From IMG/VR virus record IMGVR_UViG_3300048834_000244, positions 1 to 59,310 of that record: 59,310 nucleotides of DNA. The stretch is one strand, 5' to 3'. Below are positions 33,370-57,381 of the stretch, in pieces. The translations under genes and the position numbers were made by a program. Source of the stretch: a virus. The notes under the pieces were generated by a model, which was not told the DNA's origin, did no database searches, and was given only the letters and a program-made list of their open reading frames with translations. Within the stretch, counting starts at the first letter, position 1; each line of letters begins with the position of its first letter.

Positions 33370-34902
33370 TCAGACGATCGAGAGAGGCTTGCGGGAGGGG
33401 AGAACGATCTTCGAGCCGGCGGCACGTTCACGAAAGAACCACGCCATGATCAGCGCGTCGGCATCATCGGTGGATGACCCGAGGCGCTTCTTGATATCTT
33501 CCTTCGCCTCAACCTGAATCTTGACGCCGCGCAGTTTCCATTTCGGCGCGGTCAATTGCGCCTGCAAGCGCACATCCGGCGGTATCTCGATTACCGGATC
33601 ATTGGAGGGATCGAGGTCTTCACGCAGCCGCCACCAGCTTTCAGCGCGCAAATTCAGAAATTCGAGTTTCTGATCTCTTGTCTTGGCTGCGGTGCCTTCT
33701 GACGCCACAAACGGCTCAGCATCTATGCGATGATGCGTCTTCAGATGATCGCGCGCCGATCCTCCCCACCCACCAGTCAGATCGATCGCGATCAGACAAT
33801 CGTCACGCCGCGTGTTGAGCACCATCAGAGCGACGGAGGGACCGTCCGGCGTATTCTTTCCCTTTTCGCGCACAAGAGCCTCAAACCGGACGCCATGCAG
33901 GGGCGCGAGCACCGTAGCGTCGCCCCCGCCCTGCGCCACATCGACGCCAAGGCAAAGCATCTTCGGCCGTTCTCTGTCTTGGTTCCTGCGCCATCTGTCG
34001 TGAGCCAACAGCAGCCAGTCGGTCGGTATGACCTGATACGGGTCGTCCTCCCTCCCGGCCATGAAGTCGCCATGCAGGAGTTGAGACCGAAGCGGCTCAG
34101 GCATCGCATTGATCTGCGCGCGATAACCAGTGTCCCGAAGGTAGAGATTGTCATCAAGCTTGGACGGGATAAACGTGCGCGATAGTGCCTCGTACTCGAC
34201 GCCATCGATCACATGCTTACCAGGGCCGTCCACCCATACGGTGCGAATTTCGCTTCTGTCACCTACCGTGATCGCCCACCGCAGTTCACCGGGCTCCGCA
34301 GGGTTCGGGAATGCCGGATCAAGCCAAGGCGCGAACCATTCAACCAGCCATTGACCATCGCCGCCGATCGGCGGATTGGAGCCAATAACAGCCCTGCATC
34401 GCACCCCATCAGCCGACCGGAGCCAACCCAGGACGAAGTTTACCTTGTACGCGGTAAGCTGCGCCCCCTCGTCAAAGCCGATGAAATCGTGGGGCCTTCC
34501 TTGCCATGACAGTTCGGAGCCGGGGTTCTCCAGATGCCCGCACTCAATCAGCCGGTTGTCGTCTGTAACGAGGCGCTTCTTGTTGCTGTCCGACTTGGCG
34601 TTGCTCGGGCTGATTTCGAGCAGGCGGTCCCAGAAGCCCTCCAGATCGGTCGATTGCCGGCGGAAAATAACCGAACGACGATGCTGCGTCAGCGCAAGGC
34701 CGCACAGAAGGTCGGATTTGCCGCCGCCCGCCGCGCCGCCGTAGAGCAGGAGATCGGCATCGGAAAAGAAAGCCTCAGTCTGCGGCCCCGGTTGCGGCAG
34801 CCACTTTTGCGCCAGCTCCTTTTCAAGCGTCTTGTCGAGGTTCGCCTTATCCTCTGGCGACATCTCAGCCAGAAGCGCTTTCAGGTCAGCAAACCCGTCC
34901 AC
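33370..34902 (-). CDS. terL: Terminase large subunit
   Basis: 510 residues. Walker A GGAAGGGKS (residues 55-63), Walker B DFIGFDEG, the coupling motif GSNPP and the nuclease-domain start CLGVDVAQGGGDAT, with DALIMAWF near the C-terminus. This ATPase/nuclease drives DNA into the prohead and cuts the concatemer. The circular closure of the genome would fit headful packaging. It directly follows the small subunit. Confidence 0.93.
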   Translation of the reverse strand: MDGFADLKALLAEMSPEDKANLDKTLEKELAQKWLPQPGPQTEAFFSDADLLLYGGAAGGGKSDLLCGLALTQHRRSVIFRRQSTDLEGFWDRLLEISPSNAKSDSNKKRLVTDDNRLIECGHLENPGSELSWQGRPHDFIGFDEGAQLTAYKVNFVLGWLRSADGVRCRAVIGSNPPIGGDGQWLVEWFAPWLDPAFPNPAEPGELRWAITVGDRSEIRTVWVDGPGKHVIDGVEYEALSRTFIPSKLDDNLYLRDTGYRAQINAMPEPLRSQLLHGDFMAGREDDPYQVIPTDWLLLAHDRWRRNQDRERPKMLCLGVDVAQGGGDATVLAPLHGVRFEALVREKGKNTPDGPSVALMVLNTRRDDCLIAIDLTGGWGGSARDHLKTHHRIDAEPFVASEGTAAKTRDQKLEFLNLRAESWWRLREDLDPSNDPVIEIPPDVRLQAQLTAPKWKLRGVKIQVEAKEDIKKRLGSSTDDADALIMAWFFRERAAGSKIVLPSRKPLSIV

Positions 34903-34907
34903 AGGGC

Positions 34908-35549
34908 TCAGGCCTTACCGGATACTTCTCGCTTGGCCTTCGACGCGAGAAACGCCATGGCCTTGGCGCGGTCCAGATCGGAGACTTCGCGCATTTCGAT
35001 CGGCCCGCCGTCCTTGCCGGTGTGCTCAACCCTGTCCTTGAACATGCCGAGATGCCGGCCGATATCGACCAGCGCCGCCCGCTTGTCGTGCAGCTTGATC
35101 TTGACGCCGCCGGTCGCGTTCTGGCTGACCTCGGCGATGGCGGCGGCCGTCTCGTCGTCCAGTTCATCGCTGGCGACCATCTGGACCGTGTTCGTCACGA
35201 CGGTCTTGATCACCGCGATGTCGCCGCCGTCCGGGTTATCCTCTTCGGTGATCATAGCACTCTGCCATTTGACCGCCTTGCGGATGTCCGCAAACCCGAT
35301 CTTGGCAAGCTCCTTGAGAACGCGATCGGCCGTGATGTCTGTGCGTTCGGACCGCGACTTCATCGCGGCCTCAATGGCGGAGGCTATGTCAGGTTTTGTA
35401 AGGTTCTCTGCTCCGATTGCGCGCGCTGTGTCCTCGCTGTACCCGGCCCTGATTGCAGCCTGAGTAGCATTCAGGTCGATGAGGTATTCACGAACGAATG
35501 CGCGCTGCTTCGGCGTCAGTTCGTTTTCCCATTCTTCGGCATCACTCAT
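34908..35549 (-). CDS. terS: Terminase small subunit
   Basis: 213 residues. The N-terminal helix-turn-helix (TPKQRAFVREYLIDLNATQA, then AIRAGYS) is the signature of the Terminase_2 family, which recognises the packaging site. The C-terminus (TGKDGGPIEMREVSDLDRAK) would contact the large subunit. The 180 bases upstream contain no gene I can support. Confidence 0.9.
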   Translation of the reverse strand: MSDAEEWENELTPKQRAFVREYLIDLNATQAAIRAGYSEDTARAIGAENLTKPDIASAIEAAMKSRSERTDITADRVLKELAKIGFADIRKAVKWQSAMITEEDNPDGGDIAVIKTVVTNTVQMVASDELDDETAAAIAEVSQNATGGVKIKLHDKRAALVDIGRHLGMFKDRVEHTGKDGGPIEMREVSDLDRAKAMAFLASKAKREVSGKA

Positions 35550-36710: not shown

Positions 36711-37115
36711 TCAGCCTTCAAGCCAGCCTTCAATAACGCCGAGAAGGCTGCGTTCCTCCTGACGCTGGTAGAAGTCGTACTGTCGATCGCTGATCATCCG
36801 AGCGCGCATCCATGGCGCGACGGAGCGAAGAGTGCTGACCTCTTCGTAGATGCCCTGCGAATGTCGAGTTCGCTCGTGCTCTTTCTGAGCAGTCGACTTC
36901 CCGCGAAGCTTGTCGAGACGTTGCTTCGCGAATGCTACGGCATCAGCCGGGGCCTGGGCGCACCCAAGGCCATGCGCAAGCGCACCATGGTACCCCATCG
37001 GGGACGCCATCGGAGGCGCTGCCCGGTGGACAGCCATCGCAGCTTGGGCTGCAATCTTCGGCCCGGCAACGGCGGCTCCTGCGCTCGCTCCGAAGAATGC
37101 ACGTCGATTCAGCAT
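36711..37115 (-). CDS. Protein with Tat-like signal sequence
   Basis: 134 residues. The N-terminus LNRRAFFGASAGAAVAGPKI carries a twin-arginine RRxFF motif followed by a mild hydrophobic stretch, then ATTR-like charged helices (KQRLDKLRGKSTAQKEHERT) and RQYDFYQRQEERSLLGVIEG. A Tat-exported phage protein is unusual; it may instead be a virion component. Its start is 17 bases from the divergent nuclease gene. Confidence 0.55.
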   Translation of the reverse strand: MLNRRAFFGASAGAAVAGPKIAAQAAMAVHRAAPPMASPMGYHGALAHGLGCAQAPADAVAFAKQRLDKLRGKSTAQKEHERTRHSQGIYEEVSTLRSVAPWMRARMISDRQYDFYQRQEERSLLGVIEGWLEG

Positions 37116-37117
37116 GT

Positions 37118-37130
37118 GCTATCCTCGCCG
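37118..37130 (+). promoter_or_regulatory. Shared -10 element before the secreted nuclease gene
   Basis: GCTATCCTCGCCG, identical to 16592-16604. The TATCCT at 37120-37125 sits six bases before the GTG start, so translation would begin almost at the RNA 5' end. The expected -35 position holds only the weak ATGCAC. Confidence 0.45.
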
Positions 37131-37131
37131 G

Positions 37132-37611
37132 GTGAAACTCTTCCTCACCGCCCAGCTCCTGCTCACCGCGCCAGCCATGGCGGAAGACATCGTGGGCAGG
37201 GCCGATGTGGTGGACGGGGACACGATCTCCATCCACGGCGCGCGCATCCGTCTCGACGGCGTAGATGCTCCGGAGAGCTGGCAGACGTGCCATGATGCAG
37301 GCGGCAAGCTCTATCGTTGCGGCGCTCGCGCTGCCGAGGCGCTTGATGCCCTGCTGGCCGCGTCACGCCCTACGAGATGCCGGAAGGTCGATACGGACAG
37401 GTATGGCCGCGTCGTCGCGGTGTGTTTTCGCGGCGATGGGGTCGAAGTGAACGCCTGGCTCGTCCGCAACGGCTTTGCCATCGATTACCGCAAATACAGC
37501 CGGGGCAGGTATCTGTCCGAGCAAGCCGAAGCCAAGCGCCATAAGCGCGGCATCTGGTCCGGCGCCTTCACCCTGCCTTGGGAGGCCCGCCGCATGAAGC
37601 GGGGGAGTTAG
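37132..37611 (+). CDS. Secreted thermonuclease (SNase-like)
   Basis: 159 residues from GTG at 37132. A signal peptide (MKLFLTAQLLLTAPAMAEDI, GTG read as Met) precedes an SNase/TNase domain: VVDGDTISIHGARIRLDGVD (catalytic D and R), APESWQTC and DRYGRVVAVCF with a YRKYSRGRYL segment. It cuts DNA or RNA in the periplasm or outside the cell. It is transcribed against the late operon, so it is a cargo gene that could be made in the lysogen. The family is common in rhizobia, which suggests capture from a host. Confidence 0.88.
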   Translation: MKLFLTAQLLLTAPAMAEDIVGRADVVDGDTISIHGARIRLDGVDAPESWQTCHDAGGKLYRCGARAAEALDALLAASRPTRCRKVDTDRYGRVVAVCFRGDGVEVNAWLVRNGFAIDYRKYSRGRYLSEQAEAKRHKRGIWSGAFTLPWEARRMKRGS

Positions 37612-38031: not shown

Positions 38032-38250
38032 CTACCTCAGCGCAGCGTTCACATCCCTGAATGTGCAGCGGAGCAGCGCGGCTATCGTCGCGACGCCGAC
38101 GCCACGAGCGAATAGACGCCTGATCTCCGCGTAGAGCGGTTCGGGTCGCACGGGATGTCCTGATTTTTGGCAAAGCTTCGCAACAGGCCACTTGCGAAAG
38201 GTGGCATCAGGCCGGGCCTCTGGCCCCGTCGCCCGTATCGCAGCGGTCAA
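38032..38250 (-). CDS. Small helix-turn-helix protein, TTG start
   Basis: 72 residues from TTG at 38250, with AAGGGG at good spacing. The C-terminal half (AEIRRLFARGVGVATIAALL, then RCTFRDVNAALR) is a resolvase-like helix-turn-helix. Basic N-terminus. It follows the HNH gene on the same strand by 24 bases. It may be a DNA-binding regulator, or the C-terminal part of a gene split by the HNH insertion. Confidence 0.5.
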   Translation of the reverse strand: MTAAIRATGPEARPDATFRKWPVAKLCQKSGHPVRPEPLYAEIRRLFARGVGVATIAALLRCTFRDVNAALR

Positions 38251-38266
38251 ATTAACCCCTTCAAAG

Positions 38267-38276
38267 TTAATTGTCT
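38267..38276. repeat. 10-bp direct repeat TTAATTGTCT, left
   Basis: Overlaps the stop codon of HNH gene 4. The same ten bases occur at 38885-38894, just before that gene, so the HNH gene is bracketed by direct repeats. Confidence 0.6.
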
Positions 38277-38859
38277 AGGCCTGCGAACGCCTTTTCCCAG
38301 ATTGGATCAGAGATATGGTGCTTTCGTGCACACCGTACCTCGCCGCCGTCACCGCAATTCTTTCGTTCCCGCGCATCGATCTGATGGTCTGGATGTCATG
38401 GTTCGGGATTTTTGAAGTACGATACAAAGGCGCGACGCCACTCCCCCGCAACTTAGCGCCTTCCGCATGATTTTCGGCGCGAGATGCCCAATGCAGATGC
38501 CTTGGGTTGACACACCCCTGTCGCCCCTTCCCGCATATGTGCGCGGCCTCGTTTTTCCCTTTCGGCGGCTCACCGTGGGAAGCTATGCAGACGTACCTAT
38601 GGGCACCCATCACCTTGCCGTTGAATGAAACCTGCCCGTAACCATCCCGGGTTCTCGGCTTGAACTGCCAAAACACGCAATCATCGGTGCCAACTCGCTC
38701 AACCAACTCATCCAGCCAAGCGATGGCGGCGCCGGGCGAGCTATGCCCAGCAAGGGCGTCACCGTTGCGTTTCCATCGGAAATAATGGGATGTGCACCAC
38801 CCGCGGGCAAATACCGCCTTGCAGCACCCTAGAATCGAGCATGTCGGCTTGTCGGCCAT
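38275..38859 (-). CDS. HNH homing-type endonuclease 4
   Basis: 194 residues. N-terminal knuckle CSILGCCKAVFARGWCTSHY, HNH core (CVFWQFKPRTRDGYGQVSFN, AHICGKGRQGCVNPRHLHWA) and C-terminal helix-turn-helix (IQTIRSMRGNERIAVTAARY). Same architecture as HNH genes 1-3, but encoded in the direction of the late operon and without the shared 5' repeat. GGAGTGGAG precedes the ATG. It lies directly after the NusG-like gene. Confidence 0.88.
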   Translation of the reverse strand: MADKPTCSILGCCKAVFARGWCTSHYFRWKRNGDALAGHSSPGAAIAWLDELVERVGTDDCVFWQFKPRTRDGYGQVSFNGKVMGAHRYVCIASHGEPPKGKNEAAHICGKGRQGCVNPRHLHWASRAENHAEGAKLRGSGVAPLYRTSKIPNHDIQTIRSMRGNERIAVTAARYGVHESTISLIQSGKRRSQA

Positions 38860-38936: not shown

Positions 38937-39614
38937 TCAAGATGCGGCCTTCAAGAACTCATACGGGACCGTGATCGTCTCCGTAGCAGCGTCCAGCCCT
39001 TGAAGGATGACCTTGACATGATCCTGGTCTTCCCAAGCTGCCACGGTCGCGTCCCGTCCGACCTTATCACCCCAGATCAGCTTCACCTCTCGTCCCGCGA
39101 ATAGCTTCTTGCGCGCGTTCCTCGAAGCCAGTTTCACCTTTTCACGGGCGATGCGCTCCTCCGACTTGGACAGGCTGGCAGCCTTGGCCTGAGCCTCATC
39201 GCGACAGTTCGCCTCGAAAAGCCTGAGACGGAATAGGTCAACGGCGTTTACGGGGAATGGCCGGCCACCGAACGCCACTACGCCGCTCACACCACGAACA
39301 TCCATGAGACGCGGCCAATCTGCGTCCTCCAGATCGCCGACGAACATGTAGCCCTTGAGAAGCGGAAACCTGCGAAGCTCATACACTCCGCGCTTGTGCC
39401 TGTTGCGGACGACCGCGAATTCGGCCGGCATGTAGTAGGTAAACGCCGCGTCCTTCAGCGCCAGTTCCACGGCGGAATAGTCCGGGTTGATGCCTGAGGC
39501 TATCCGATAGCCCTTCCGACCGCCGACTGAATTCCCGTTCTCGTCTTCGCTCTCCGGCCAAAACTCCCGCTTCGGCTGCTGAGCGCCGGGCGTTGTGCGT
39601 ATCGCGTACCACAT
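38937..39614 (-). CDS. NusG-like transcription factor (candidate late antiterminator)
   Basis: 225 residues. The start MWYAIRTTPGAQQPKREFWP, the segment VELALKDAAFTYYMPAEFAV, and PLLKGYMFVGDLEDADWPRL match the NusG N-terminal domain (NGN), which binds RNA polymerase and makes it processive. The C-terminal part (GREVKLIWGDKVGRDATVAA...VKVILQGLDAATETITVPYE) fits a KOW domain. An insert of about 30 residues follows the start. It is encoded just upstream of the packaging and virion genes, so a role in allowing RNA polymerase through the long late operon is likely, but inferred. Confidence 0.8.
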   Translation of the reverse strand: MWYAIRTTPGAQQPKREFWPESEDENGNSVGGRKGYRIASGINPDYSAVELALKDAAFTYYMPAEFAVVRNRHKRGVYELRRFPLLKGYMFVGDLEDADWPRLMDVRGVSGVVAFGGRPFPVNAVDLFRLRLFEANCRDEAQAKAASLSKSEERIAREKVKLASRNARKKLFAGREVKLIWGDKVGRDATVAAWEDQDHVKVILQGLDAATETITVPYEFLKAAS

Positions 39615-39726: not shown

Positions 39727-40002
39727 TCACATCAGCTTTGTGTACCCGGATGACTGGCGGCGGCCGGAGCCTATGGTGTGCGGGTCTGTCGCCTGCGTCG
39801 GCTTGACCATGCGTTTCGGTTTTGGCCCTGGCGGACGCGGCTTGGGGGCGACGATCTGGCGCGGCGCTACCCCGTTCCTCGCTGCAAGCTTGCGGACATA
39901 GCCAGGGTTGACCCCGTACTTGCGGCCTATGTCGGCCGAGTTTCCCCCGGCCCGGTAGGCTGCGATGATCTCGTTTCTTTCAGACTTGGTGAGGCGGGCC
40001 AT
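39727..40002 (-). CDS. Helix-turn-helix DNA-binding protein
   Basis: 91 residues. N-terminal HTH of resolvase/transposase type (TKSERNEIIAAYRAGGNSAD, IGRKYGVNPGYVRKLAARNG) followed by a basic, proline-rich tail (PKPRPPGPKPKRMVKP). It may regulate the late operon that begins just downstream or help at the packaging site. One-base overlap with the upstream DnaA-like gene. Confidence 0.65.
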   Translation of the reverse strand: MARLTKSERNEIIAAYRAGGNSADIGRKYGVNPGYVRKLAARNGVAPRQIVAPKPRPPGPKPKRMVKPTQATDPHTIGSGRRQSSGYTKLM

Positions 40003-40445
40003 CAGCGAAGCCCCCTCACCTTGAGCGCATGCAACAAAGTCGTATGGTCTCTCTTGAACAGCCGGCCCAGCATGGGGAGCGACATTCCCGGATAACTCGT
40101 CGCCACAGCTGCAACCGCATCAAACCTAGCCTGAATAAGAGGCCGAGCGCGTGAAGGGCCAAGCACATCATCGACCGTAAATCCATGCCATGCCGCGACC
40201 CGGCCAATGAGATTGCGCGCATCGAACGGCGTGACGGGACGCGGCTTTGGGATAGCTCGTTCCAGCCGCAGGGCTTCCATCTCACGACGCTGTTCTGCCC
40301 GCCTTCTCGCTTCCGCCGCTTCGGCCTGCCTTCTCTCCCACTCCCGCGACGCAGCTATCAGCGCATCGCGACGTGGAGTGGCGCGACGTTCGCTTGCGAT
40401 GCGCTTGGCTCCAGCTTCGGTAAATCGTGATGATACAGCGAACAT
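40002..40445 (-). CDS. DnaA domain IV-like DNA-binding protein
   Basis: 147 residues. The C-terminal half aligns with the DNA-binding domain of DnaA: FTVDDVLGPSRARPLIQARF, then YPGMSLPMLGRLFKRDHTTL, ending LHALKVRG. This includes the LF.RDHTT.LHA box that reads the DnaA-box. There is no AAA+ ATPase domain. The N-terminal half is a charged helix. It lies among replication genes and may mark the phage origin or bind host DnaA boxes. Confidence 0.8.
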   Translation of the reverse strand: MFAVSSRFTEAGAKRIASERRATPRRDALIAASREWERRQAEAAEARRRAEQRREMEALRLERAIPKPRPVTPFDARNLIGRVAAWHGFTVDDVLGPSRARPLIQARFDAVAAVATSYPGMSLPMLGRLFKRDHTTLLHALKVRGLR

Positions 40446-56197: not shown

Positions 56198-56414
56198 GCT
56201 GACAGAGGCGGAGATCACGGGTCGGGCAGCGCAAATCATCACGATTGCGATGGGTACCCGAACCACGGGGCGCGGACGCGGAACCGTCCGTATCGGAAAC
56301 GCCGACGATGACCCACTCGCCTACTGGCTCGGCGTTGAGGCCATCCTCGAACTTGTCGAAGATACCTACGAAGCCGGCCGCGCCGCGCTCAACCAGACAG
56401 ACGGAGGGGCGTGA
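56175..56414 (+). CDS. Small helical early protein
   Basis: 79 residues from the ATG at 56175. Helical (KLTEAEITGRAAQIITIAMG; LAYWLGVEAILELVEDTYEA). It ends one base before the start of the radical SAM gene, so both are likely co-translated. No family recognised. Confidence 0.6.
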   Translation: MEAAVANKLTEAEITGRAAQIITIAMGTRTTGRGRGTVRIGNADDDPLAYWLGVEAILELVEDTYEAGRAALNQTDGGA

Positions 56415-56415
56415 G

Positions 56416-57381
56416 ATGTTGTTCCGCGACGTGAAAATCATCCCGAGCGCTGAAGGAAATGTCAGCAAATACGTCTTTACGGCCGAAACGGGCGTCGCCG
56501 AAGCCGTCCTATACCGGTATCCCGATTATCAGACGCGCACTGTCATATGTTGCTCTACCATGAGCGGATGCCCTGTCGGATGCCGCTTCTGCGGCGCGGG
56601 CGACTACTTTGTCCGCTCTATGTCGGCCGAAGAAATCGTTGCGCAGGCAGACCGCTGCATCGCCGACACAGGCATTGACGCCGCCGAGATGAAGCGGCTC
56701 CAGATCATGTTCATGAGCATGGGTGAACCACTGTTGAACCCGAAGGGGATGCAGGGCGCGCTGCGGGAACTCTATGCGAAGTATCCGAACGCCGCGTTAC
56801 TCATCTCCACCATCGGCCCGGACATCGACTACGATTGGGTGCGCGACATAAGCGTCGAGATACCGACAGTCGGTCTTCAGTTTTCGGTCCACAAGTCGAG
56901 CGACGCTGAACGTGATGTTCTGATCCCGTTCAAGAAGAAGTTGCCGCTGAATTTCATCGCCTATGAGGGCGAACGGTGGTTTCGCGAGACGGGGAGAAAG
57001 CCGTTCTTCAACTACTGCGCGGGCGACGACAACTCGTTGCCGCACGACGCGGATCGGCTGCGGGAACGCTTCGATCCGACCGTCTGGAATGCGACCGTAA
57101 GCGTCATCTGCGAGCGTAACGAGGGTATGCCGGCGAAGAACGATCACCAGATCGAACTAGCGGCCAACTTCGCCTCACTACTTGTCGAACGCGGCTACGA
57201 CGTTCGCGTGTTCGATCCCGCTGGCCAGGACGATATAGGCGGCGGTTGCGGCCAGCTTTGGTTCGTCCAGCAGTGGATGCGTGATCACCCCGAACTAGCG
57301 CGACCGAGCATCGGCCACGGACTGCCCTCCGTTCATACGCCCGCCGGCCGCTCCACCCTCGCAGGAGGTAGCGATGCGTAG
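56416..57381 (+). CDS. Radical SAM enzyme, RlmN/Cfr-like
   Basis: 321 residues. The 4Fe-4S motif is GCPVGCRFCG (C52, C56, C59). A cysteine before it (TVICCSTMSG, C45/C46) and C278 in DIGGGCGQLW sit where RlmN and Cfr have the two cysteines that carry out methyl transfer. FMSMGEPLLN and LQFSVHKSSDAERDVLIPFK are also typical of that family, which methylates A2503 of 23S rRNA (and, for RlmN, tRNA). The usual N-terminal accessory domain is shortened to about 40 residues. The phage target is unknown. The ATG follows the preceding stop directly. Confidence 0.82.
   Translation: MLFRDVKIIPSAEGNVSKYVFTAETGVAEAVLYRYPDYQTRTVICCSTMSGCPVGCRFCGAGDYFVRSMSAEEIVAQADRCIADTGIDAAEMKRLQIMFMSMGEPLLNPKGMQGALRELYAKYPNAALLISTIGPDIDYDWVRDISVEIPTVGLQFSVHKSSDAERDVLIPFKKKLPLNFIAYEGERWFRETGRKPFFNYCAGDDNSLPHDADRLRERFDPTVWNATVSVICERNEGMPAKNDHQIELAANFASLLVERGYDVRVFDPAGQDDIGGGCGQLWFVQQWMRDHPELARPSIGHGLPSVHTPAGRSTLAGGSDA

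Follow-up and report, generated by a model that had tools for sequence, protein, structure and literature searches.

To our knowledge, NusG alone among transcription factors is universally conserved. Specialised paralogues of it, namely RfaH, LoaP and UpxY, have been described from cellular and plasmid operons, RfaH being one that acts on long foreign operons. In phage lambda, the last gene of the early operon is followed directly by the late promoter, a leader terminator and then the late genes, the Q-pR'-tR' arrangement. The DNA analysed here is one virus record, 59,310 bp long (IMG/VR record IMGVR_UViG_3300048834_000244, hereafter the window), in which a NusG paralogue of 225 amino acids is encoded by an open reading frame (ORF) at 38937-39614 on the minus strand. 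It is probably a LoaP-like antiterminator in the position of Q, recruited via a leader and driving the late operon. LoaP, a NusG paralogue of Bacillota, carries out processive antitermination of a long operon, for which it needs a small leader RNA hairpin plus a leader terminator (PMC12691694). Lambda Q is treated in PMC7171158. The put element of phage HK022 is a structured RNA in the leader of a phage operon, where it modifies the elongation complex (PMC9378689). The antiterminator of Sinorhizobium phage phiLM21 is listed without a mechanism (PMC12429752). We found no description of a phage NusG mechanism in the openly readable literature, subscription papers being outside the search, and no account there of a linked promoter/leader element.

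The window protein passed the curated cut-off of the Pfam NusG model (PF02357, E 8e-8) and matched PHROG 25909 'transcription antiterminator' (8e-24) and, in the PDB, RfaH (9ik0, 1e-6). With E values up to 10, the Pfam scan returned NusG and a PhnJ match below cut-off only, leaving the Q protein families PF06530, PF03589 and PF06323 unmatched. The RfaH equivalog TIGR01955 (NCBIfam) scored 30.7 bits for a cut-off of 144.5, and the cut-offs of the NusG and UpxY models were likewise missed by far. An AlphaFold2 model was built from a 21-sequence family alignment (mean pLDDT, predicted local distance difference test, 84), and contains the following parts:

Residues 1-120 (about), window protein: NGN domain
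Between the NGN and C-terminal domains: helix of 45 residues
Residues 175-223 (about), window protein: C-terminal KOW-like beta-barrel of five strands

Model confidence was low in an NGN insertion after the first strand (about residues 20-40). The modelled NGN domain superposes on RfaH bound to RNA polymerase (6c6t_D) with a Z of 12.5 and 1.5 Å over 83 residues, and the modelled protein compared with NusG gave a Z of about 10; RfaH and NusG complexed with RNA polymerase held the top ranks in Foldseek and VIA-align. Profile comparison aligned the C-terminal region of NusG to the window protein, which supports the KOW barrel. By its predicted fold, the protein belongs to the NusG/Spt5 superfamily (NGN plus KOW). 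An initial annotation of this DNA, made from the letters alone, had read 38937-39614 as a NusG-like factor and named a predicted structure without an NGN domain as grounds for giving that up; the database matches and the NGN fold of the model bear the reading out.

The gene lies between replication and packaging genes, all on the minus strand. Ahead of it come genes for a DUF1376 protein, a primase/helicase, a DnaA C-terminal-domain protein and a small helix-turn-helix protein, and past it an HNH endonuclease, small proteins, the terminase small (TerS) and large (TerL) subunits, the portal and the remaining virion genes. The replication and DnaA-like genes occupy 40.0-43.1 kb, TerS and TerL 35.5-33.4 kb. 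The genes used below are:

40002-40445, minus strand: DnaA C-terminal-domain protein, a conserved upstream neighbour (identical order in phiLM21)
38937-39614, minus strand: NusG paralogue (ORF, domain searches and model)
38275-38859, minus strand: gene for an HNH endonuclease, an insertion that separates the NusG-like gene from the putative late promoter
36910-37611, plus strand: SNase-family nuclease gene, opposing the late transcript between leader and TerS
34908-35549, minus strand: terminase small subunit, with which the packaging genes begin
33370-34902, minus strand: terminase large subunit

TerS and TerL follow on the same strand, and the placement ahead of the packaging and virion genes given by the initial annotation stands. 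A leader had also been expected downstream of 39614; since the ORF is on the minus strand, downstream means below 38937. As to opposite-strand signals supposed to lie within the late region, the one SNase-family gene does face the late transcript, and promoter and terminator counts were near chance in the part checked (35.4-39.7 kb).

This position is fixed among relatives. An alignment-based scan of IMG/VR gave 156 relatives, of which 80 loci were returned, and the two counts that follow refer to these 80 of 156. Wherever TerL was detected (39/39 records), it lay on the same strand, 0.7-7.4 kb downstream of the nusG-like gene, record L046 carrying additional far-off TerL fragments, and a DUF1376-like ORF was found upstream in 65 loci, at a median distance of 1.8 kb. 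The deposited phages phiLM21 and RHph_N28_2 have the DnaA-like, NusG-like, terminase order of the window and differ in their head and tail genes, and the architecture is common to phages with different packaging genes. Both records are already labelled 'NusG-like transcription antiterminator', so the annotation of the protein is not new; the family is named as an antiterminator in databases and papers. A genome scan with the family alignment gave only 3 prophage loci, in Rhizobium and Sinorhizobium. Genes for tRNA, often tRNA-Met, were seen somewhat farther downstream in L014, L017, L047, L059, L060 and L073. Five loci (L048, L051, L052, L057, L063) carry a second conserved non-coding block (AAGGGGAAGCCGACGCGCCCCGA ... 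CCGTCGGCCAAGCCGGGAGGGTAGCCCGGC) at about +100 to +950 past nusG.

DNA comparison around the gene revealed a conserved non-coding stretch, a putative promoter with a leader element, at 38277-38159 on the minus strand, behind the inserted HNH gene. Its parts, as predicted, are:

38272-38277, minus strand: putative -35 hexamer TAGACA (weak match in the window, strong in relatives, TTGACA etc.)
38250-38272, minus strand: inverted repeat AATTAAC...GTTAATT filling the promoter spacer, possibly an operator or factor site
38249-38254, minus strand: putative -10 hexamer TAATTT, 17 nucleotides (nt) past the -35
38159-38241, minus strand: conserved leader-RNA element of the late transcript, about 80 nt (conservation and covariation)
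38238-38241, minus strand: 5' strand GCGA of a pseudoknot, pairing with the hairpin-2 loop TCGC (38197-38194)
38208-38235, minus strand: outer stem CGGGC/GCCTG enclosing hairpin 1
38214-38226, minus strand: hairpin 1, GGGCC-AGA-GGCCC
38187-38205, minus strand: hairpin 2, GCCAC-ctttcgcaa-GTGGC (compensatory changes seen in relatives)
38159-38183, minus strand: hairpin 3 / 3' box TTGCGAAGCTTTGCCAAAAATCAGG

The initial annotation had proposed to look for a conserved leader element such as an ops-like site or hairpin. A promoter-like sequence with a structured leader is present; an RfaH-type ops site was rejected, as the window holds two one-mismatch matches to GGCGGTAGCNTG where 1.3 are expected, none of them near the leader. 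Rfam gave no relevant match to the element.

In 7 relatives, which have no HNH gene in between, the element stands immediately behind nusG. Mean identity over eight loci of the subfamily called group A was 71% for the 80-nt element, 64% for the nusG gene and 38% for the next 80 nt. Group A carries GCGATACG or similar at this position behind the gene, and other subfamilies have their own version at the same place: GTGATTTGGGCGACGGGGATnCGTCCCGGC in group B, GTGATTTG...CGGACC...GGGAAtACTCG(A/C)CGG in groups C and E, the 3' box TTGCC(A)AAATTC recurring in other groups. Of 51 distinct loci, 25 have an exact copy of GTGATTTG between -10 and +300 relative to the end of the gene, against an expectation of 0.2. 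In the window (38275-38859) and in L021, L083, L020, L036 and L038, the leader is retained with HNH genes or other DNA lying between it and the nusG-like gene.

The linkage was also seen when starting from DNA. Four patterns, scanned against 2.9 million viral contigs, yielded 57 copies of the element, and a NusG-family gene lay upstream on the same strand in 57/57, an exclusive association in the scans made. The distance from copy to upstream profile match was 15-479 nt, with one at 1.7 kb, and a comparison of contig names showed that 25 of these contigs were absent from the 80 protein-scan loci. Because the patterns were derived from nusG-linked loci, they may overlook divergent copies that lack the gene. 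This coupling bears on the idea that the protein is a general take-over factor, replacing or competing with host NusG on all polymerases and blocking Rho-dependent silencing of phage DNA, in which case no specific late leader would be read and the element would be a late promoter with a leader of other function. NGN proteins are indeed rivals for a single RNA polymerase site (PMC7819879), and in many family members the KOW domain is lost or helical, which could mean lost Rho or S10 contacts. A general factor, however, has no need of a linked structured site, and we consider this explanation improbable.

The element covaries as a folded RNA would. In group A, the structure made of the outer stem, hairpins 1-3 and the pseudoknot had 94.7% standard pairs, versus 31-44% with partners slid, and two-sided changes occurred in 9/26 pairs, for at most 2 in slid structures and 3.2 +/- 1.3 in column shuffles (0/500 reached 9). 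The structure was partly derived from the tested alignment itself, which makes the comparison with slid partners too favourable; neither the column shuffles nor the kinds of compensatory change hinge solely on this derivation. Compensatory changes include GAGA with TCTC in the pseudoknot of L011, and AU to GC in hairpin 2 of four sequences. MAFFT leaves the variable stems of groups B and C+E out of register, so RNAalifold found few pairs there, and hairpin 2 was therefore tested per sequence. It beat shuffles in group A (combined p 2e-5) and, with 13 distinct left arms, in group C, where the combined p of 1e-10 is too small since the sequences are related and not independent. An arm-swap comparison, which gives 100% by construction (the arms being each sequence's best stem), was not used as evidence. 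The hairpin-2 loop was complementary to the 5' end in 8/8 sequences of group A (1.4 expected), 18/20 of group C (2.6) and 10/18 of group B (3.5), the 5' sequence matched in groups C and B being GTGA.

A sigma70-like hexamer pair with 16-18 nt spacing precedes the element and beats dinucleotide shuffles in every group. Mean scores, out of 12, for real and shuffled sequences were 9.0 and 5.7 in group A, 8.7 and 6.1 in B, 7.7 and 6.0 in C, and 8.8 and 5.6 in E (combined p 7e-7 to 3e-13 in the individual groups). The -35 and the nusG stop codon often share bases (as with TTGACA in L011, L003 and L014), and in the window the HNH gene stop codon TAG (38277-38275) makes up the first half of the putative -35. 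In group E (L048, L050, L059, L073, L076), the putative promoter TTGCCG-17-TATATT is wholly inside the 3' end and last codons of nusG, and GTGATTTG overlaps the nusG stop codon. Some group-C loci have a second candidate -10 about 14 nt before GTGATTTG, so that the start site is not fixed. Inverted repeats occupy the spacer at the same place in L011, L003 and L014 and differ per phage (TTAGACGC/GCGTCTAA, TAAACGC/GCGTTTA), as might be expected of an operator.

These properties argue on several counts against reading the conserved DNA as a site for packaging (cos/pac) or replication close to the terminase genes instead of a transcribed leader. The element is indeed upstream of the terminase genes, but it is usually 10-150 nt past nusG with TerL 0.7-7 kb off, promoter-like sequence precedes it, its loop and 5' end covary in an RNA-like manner, and the architecture recurs in phages whose packaging genes differ. 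Such a site is very unlikely.

Terminator-like hairpins were enriched 3.4 times at +40 to +340 of the element (1.20 per kb, versus 0.35 per kb in the rest of the loci), often clustering tightly at +96 to +125. Where they lie about 100-125 nt past the start, as in some groups, they would release a short RNA, and together with the strong covariation and pseudoknot this would fit a small RNA that functions on its own, or an RNA of the put kind that itself modifies the polymerase, with the NusG-like protein a mere neighbour or modulator. Most leaders, though, have no detected terminator, and the link between gene and element persists across groups with different terminases, despite insertions between the two; we consider this reading improbable, slightly more so than a general take-over factor.

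We favour instead recruitment of the protein through the leader. A specialised NusG paralogue would be expressed from the distal end of the early (replication) operon. Host RNA polymerase would then initiate at a late promoter of sigma70 type, located directly behind the nusG-like gene (in the window, behind the inserted HNH gene), and the short leader RNA would fold into hairpins and a pseudoknot between its 5' end and a loop. The leader, or a pause caused by it, would recruit the phage NusG, whose NGN domain would clamp RNA polymerase as RfaH and LoaP do, and the modified polymerase would ignore terminators across the packaging and virion genes. The replacement of a Q-type system, raised by the initial annotation, thus gains support from the NGN fold, the fixed pre-terminase position in diverse phages and the promoter/leader behind the gene. 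Recruitment by the leader and late-gene antitermination we infer from the Q-pR'-tR'-like arrangement, the NusG paralogue and the LoaP-like leader; use of the promoter and recognition of RNA, not DNA, are likewise presumed.

Several observations weigh against this scheme. No recognisable element was found in several distant members (L017, L023, L027). Hairpin 2 is only marginal in group B (p 0.07) and weak in group E (p 0.03), and the match between loop and 5' end is absent in group E (0/10). The folding energy of the whole leader was no lower than that of shuffles (z about 0), so that the leader structure is carried by covariation. In the window, the promoter match is weak (8/12, shuffle p 0.053) and was unreported by a stricter promoter scan of 35.4-39.7 kb. 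A leader terminator was present in only 18/56 elements of relatives and none was found in the window, and we rejected it as a general feature.

The family also varies in its C-terminal domain. Predicted models give a KOW barrel for the window protein versus an all-helical domain in the phiLM21 type, and the profile alignment runs on through the domain despite this difference. The helical form was predicted for L073 (4971-5651) and its relatives L005, L006 and L048-L084; the domain is shortened in L025-L046, and L015 appears intermediate. RfaH is a fold switcher (PMC9247905), and the barrel/helix difference may be an evolutionary fold change resembling the RfaH switch. A barrel and a predicted helical domain in one family would bear on the evolution of RfaH-type fold changes.

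Elsewhere in the window, a radical SAM protein at 56245-57381 (plus strand), an unusual phage cargo, resembles RlmN/Cfr rRNA methyltransferases, well under equivalog cut-offs (TIGR00048, 85 versus 290 bits).

Taken beyond this genome, it seems somewhat probable that, among phages of rhizobia and their relatives, a widespread family has its late genes run by a NusG paralogue which a pseudoknotted RNA recruits from the leader, where the late transcript starts. Gene, promoter and RNA would then form a self-contained module in which an unrelated protein, with an undescribed RNA family, takes over the task of Q. If true, this would be a third, independent phage solution to antitermination beside N and Q, in the form of a compact cis/trans pair, and the coupling of gene and leader predicts specifically that the protein binds or needs the leader RNA. 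What is new here is the promoter/leader element linked to a phage NusG in a Q-like role; leader-recruited NusG paralogues were already known.

Among these, LoaP is likewise a NusG paralogue with a structured leader RNA at its target, as presumed for the window protein. It differs in that the window protein is phage-encoded and sits next to its presumed target, before virion genes, and the phage leader, known here from sequence, is larger and multi-hairpin, with a predicted pseudoknot and no UNCG hairpin noted. In sequence and in structure, the NGN domain comes closest to RfaH (with its plasmid-borne counterpart PrfaH). The window protein nevertheless remains far below the RfaH equivalog cut-off, carries an additional insertion behind its first strand together with a long helical linker, and is accompanied by no excess of ops-like sites over chance in the window. 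The phiLM21 protein gp34 (PHROG 25909) belongs to the same family, with the same gene position and the same kind of promoter/leader element, and differs in its predicted helical C-terminal domain. HK022 put is also a structured leader RNA of a phage operon, but it acts as RNA alone and on early genes, while the RNA of the window is tied to a NusG-family gene and to late genes. Finally, the likeness to lambda Q lies in the arrangement, the phage nusG appearing as the last gene of the early operon, with a putative late promoter behind it, a leader terminator in some members, and then the terminase and virion genes; the difference lies in the parts, a NusG fold in place of Q, and a structured leader in place of a Q-binding DNA site.
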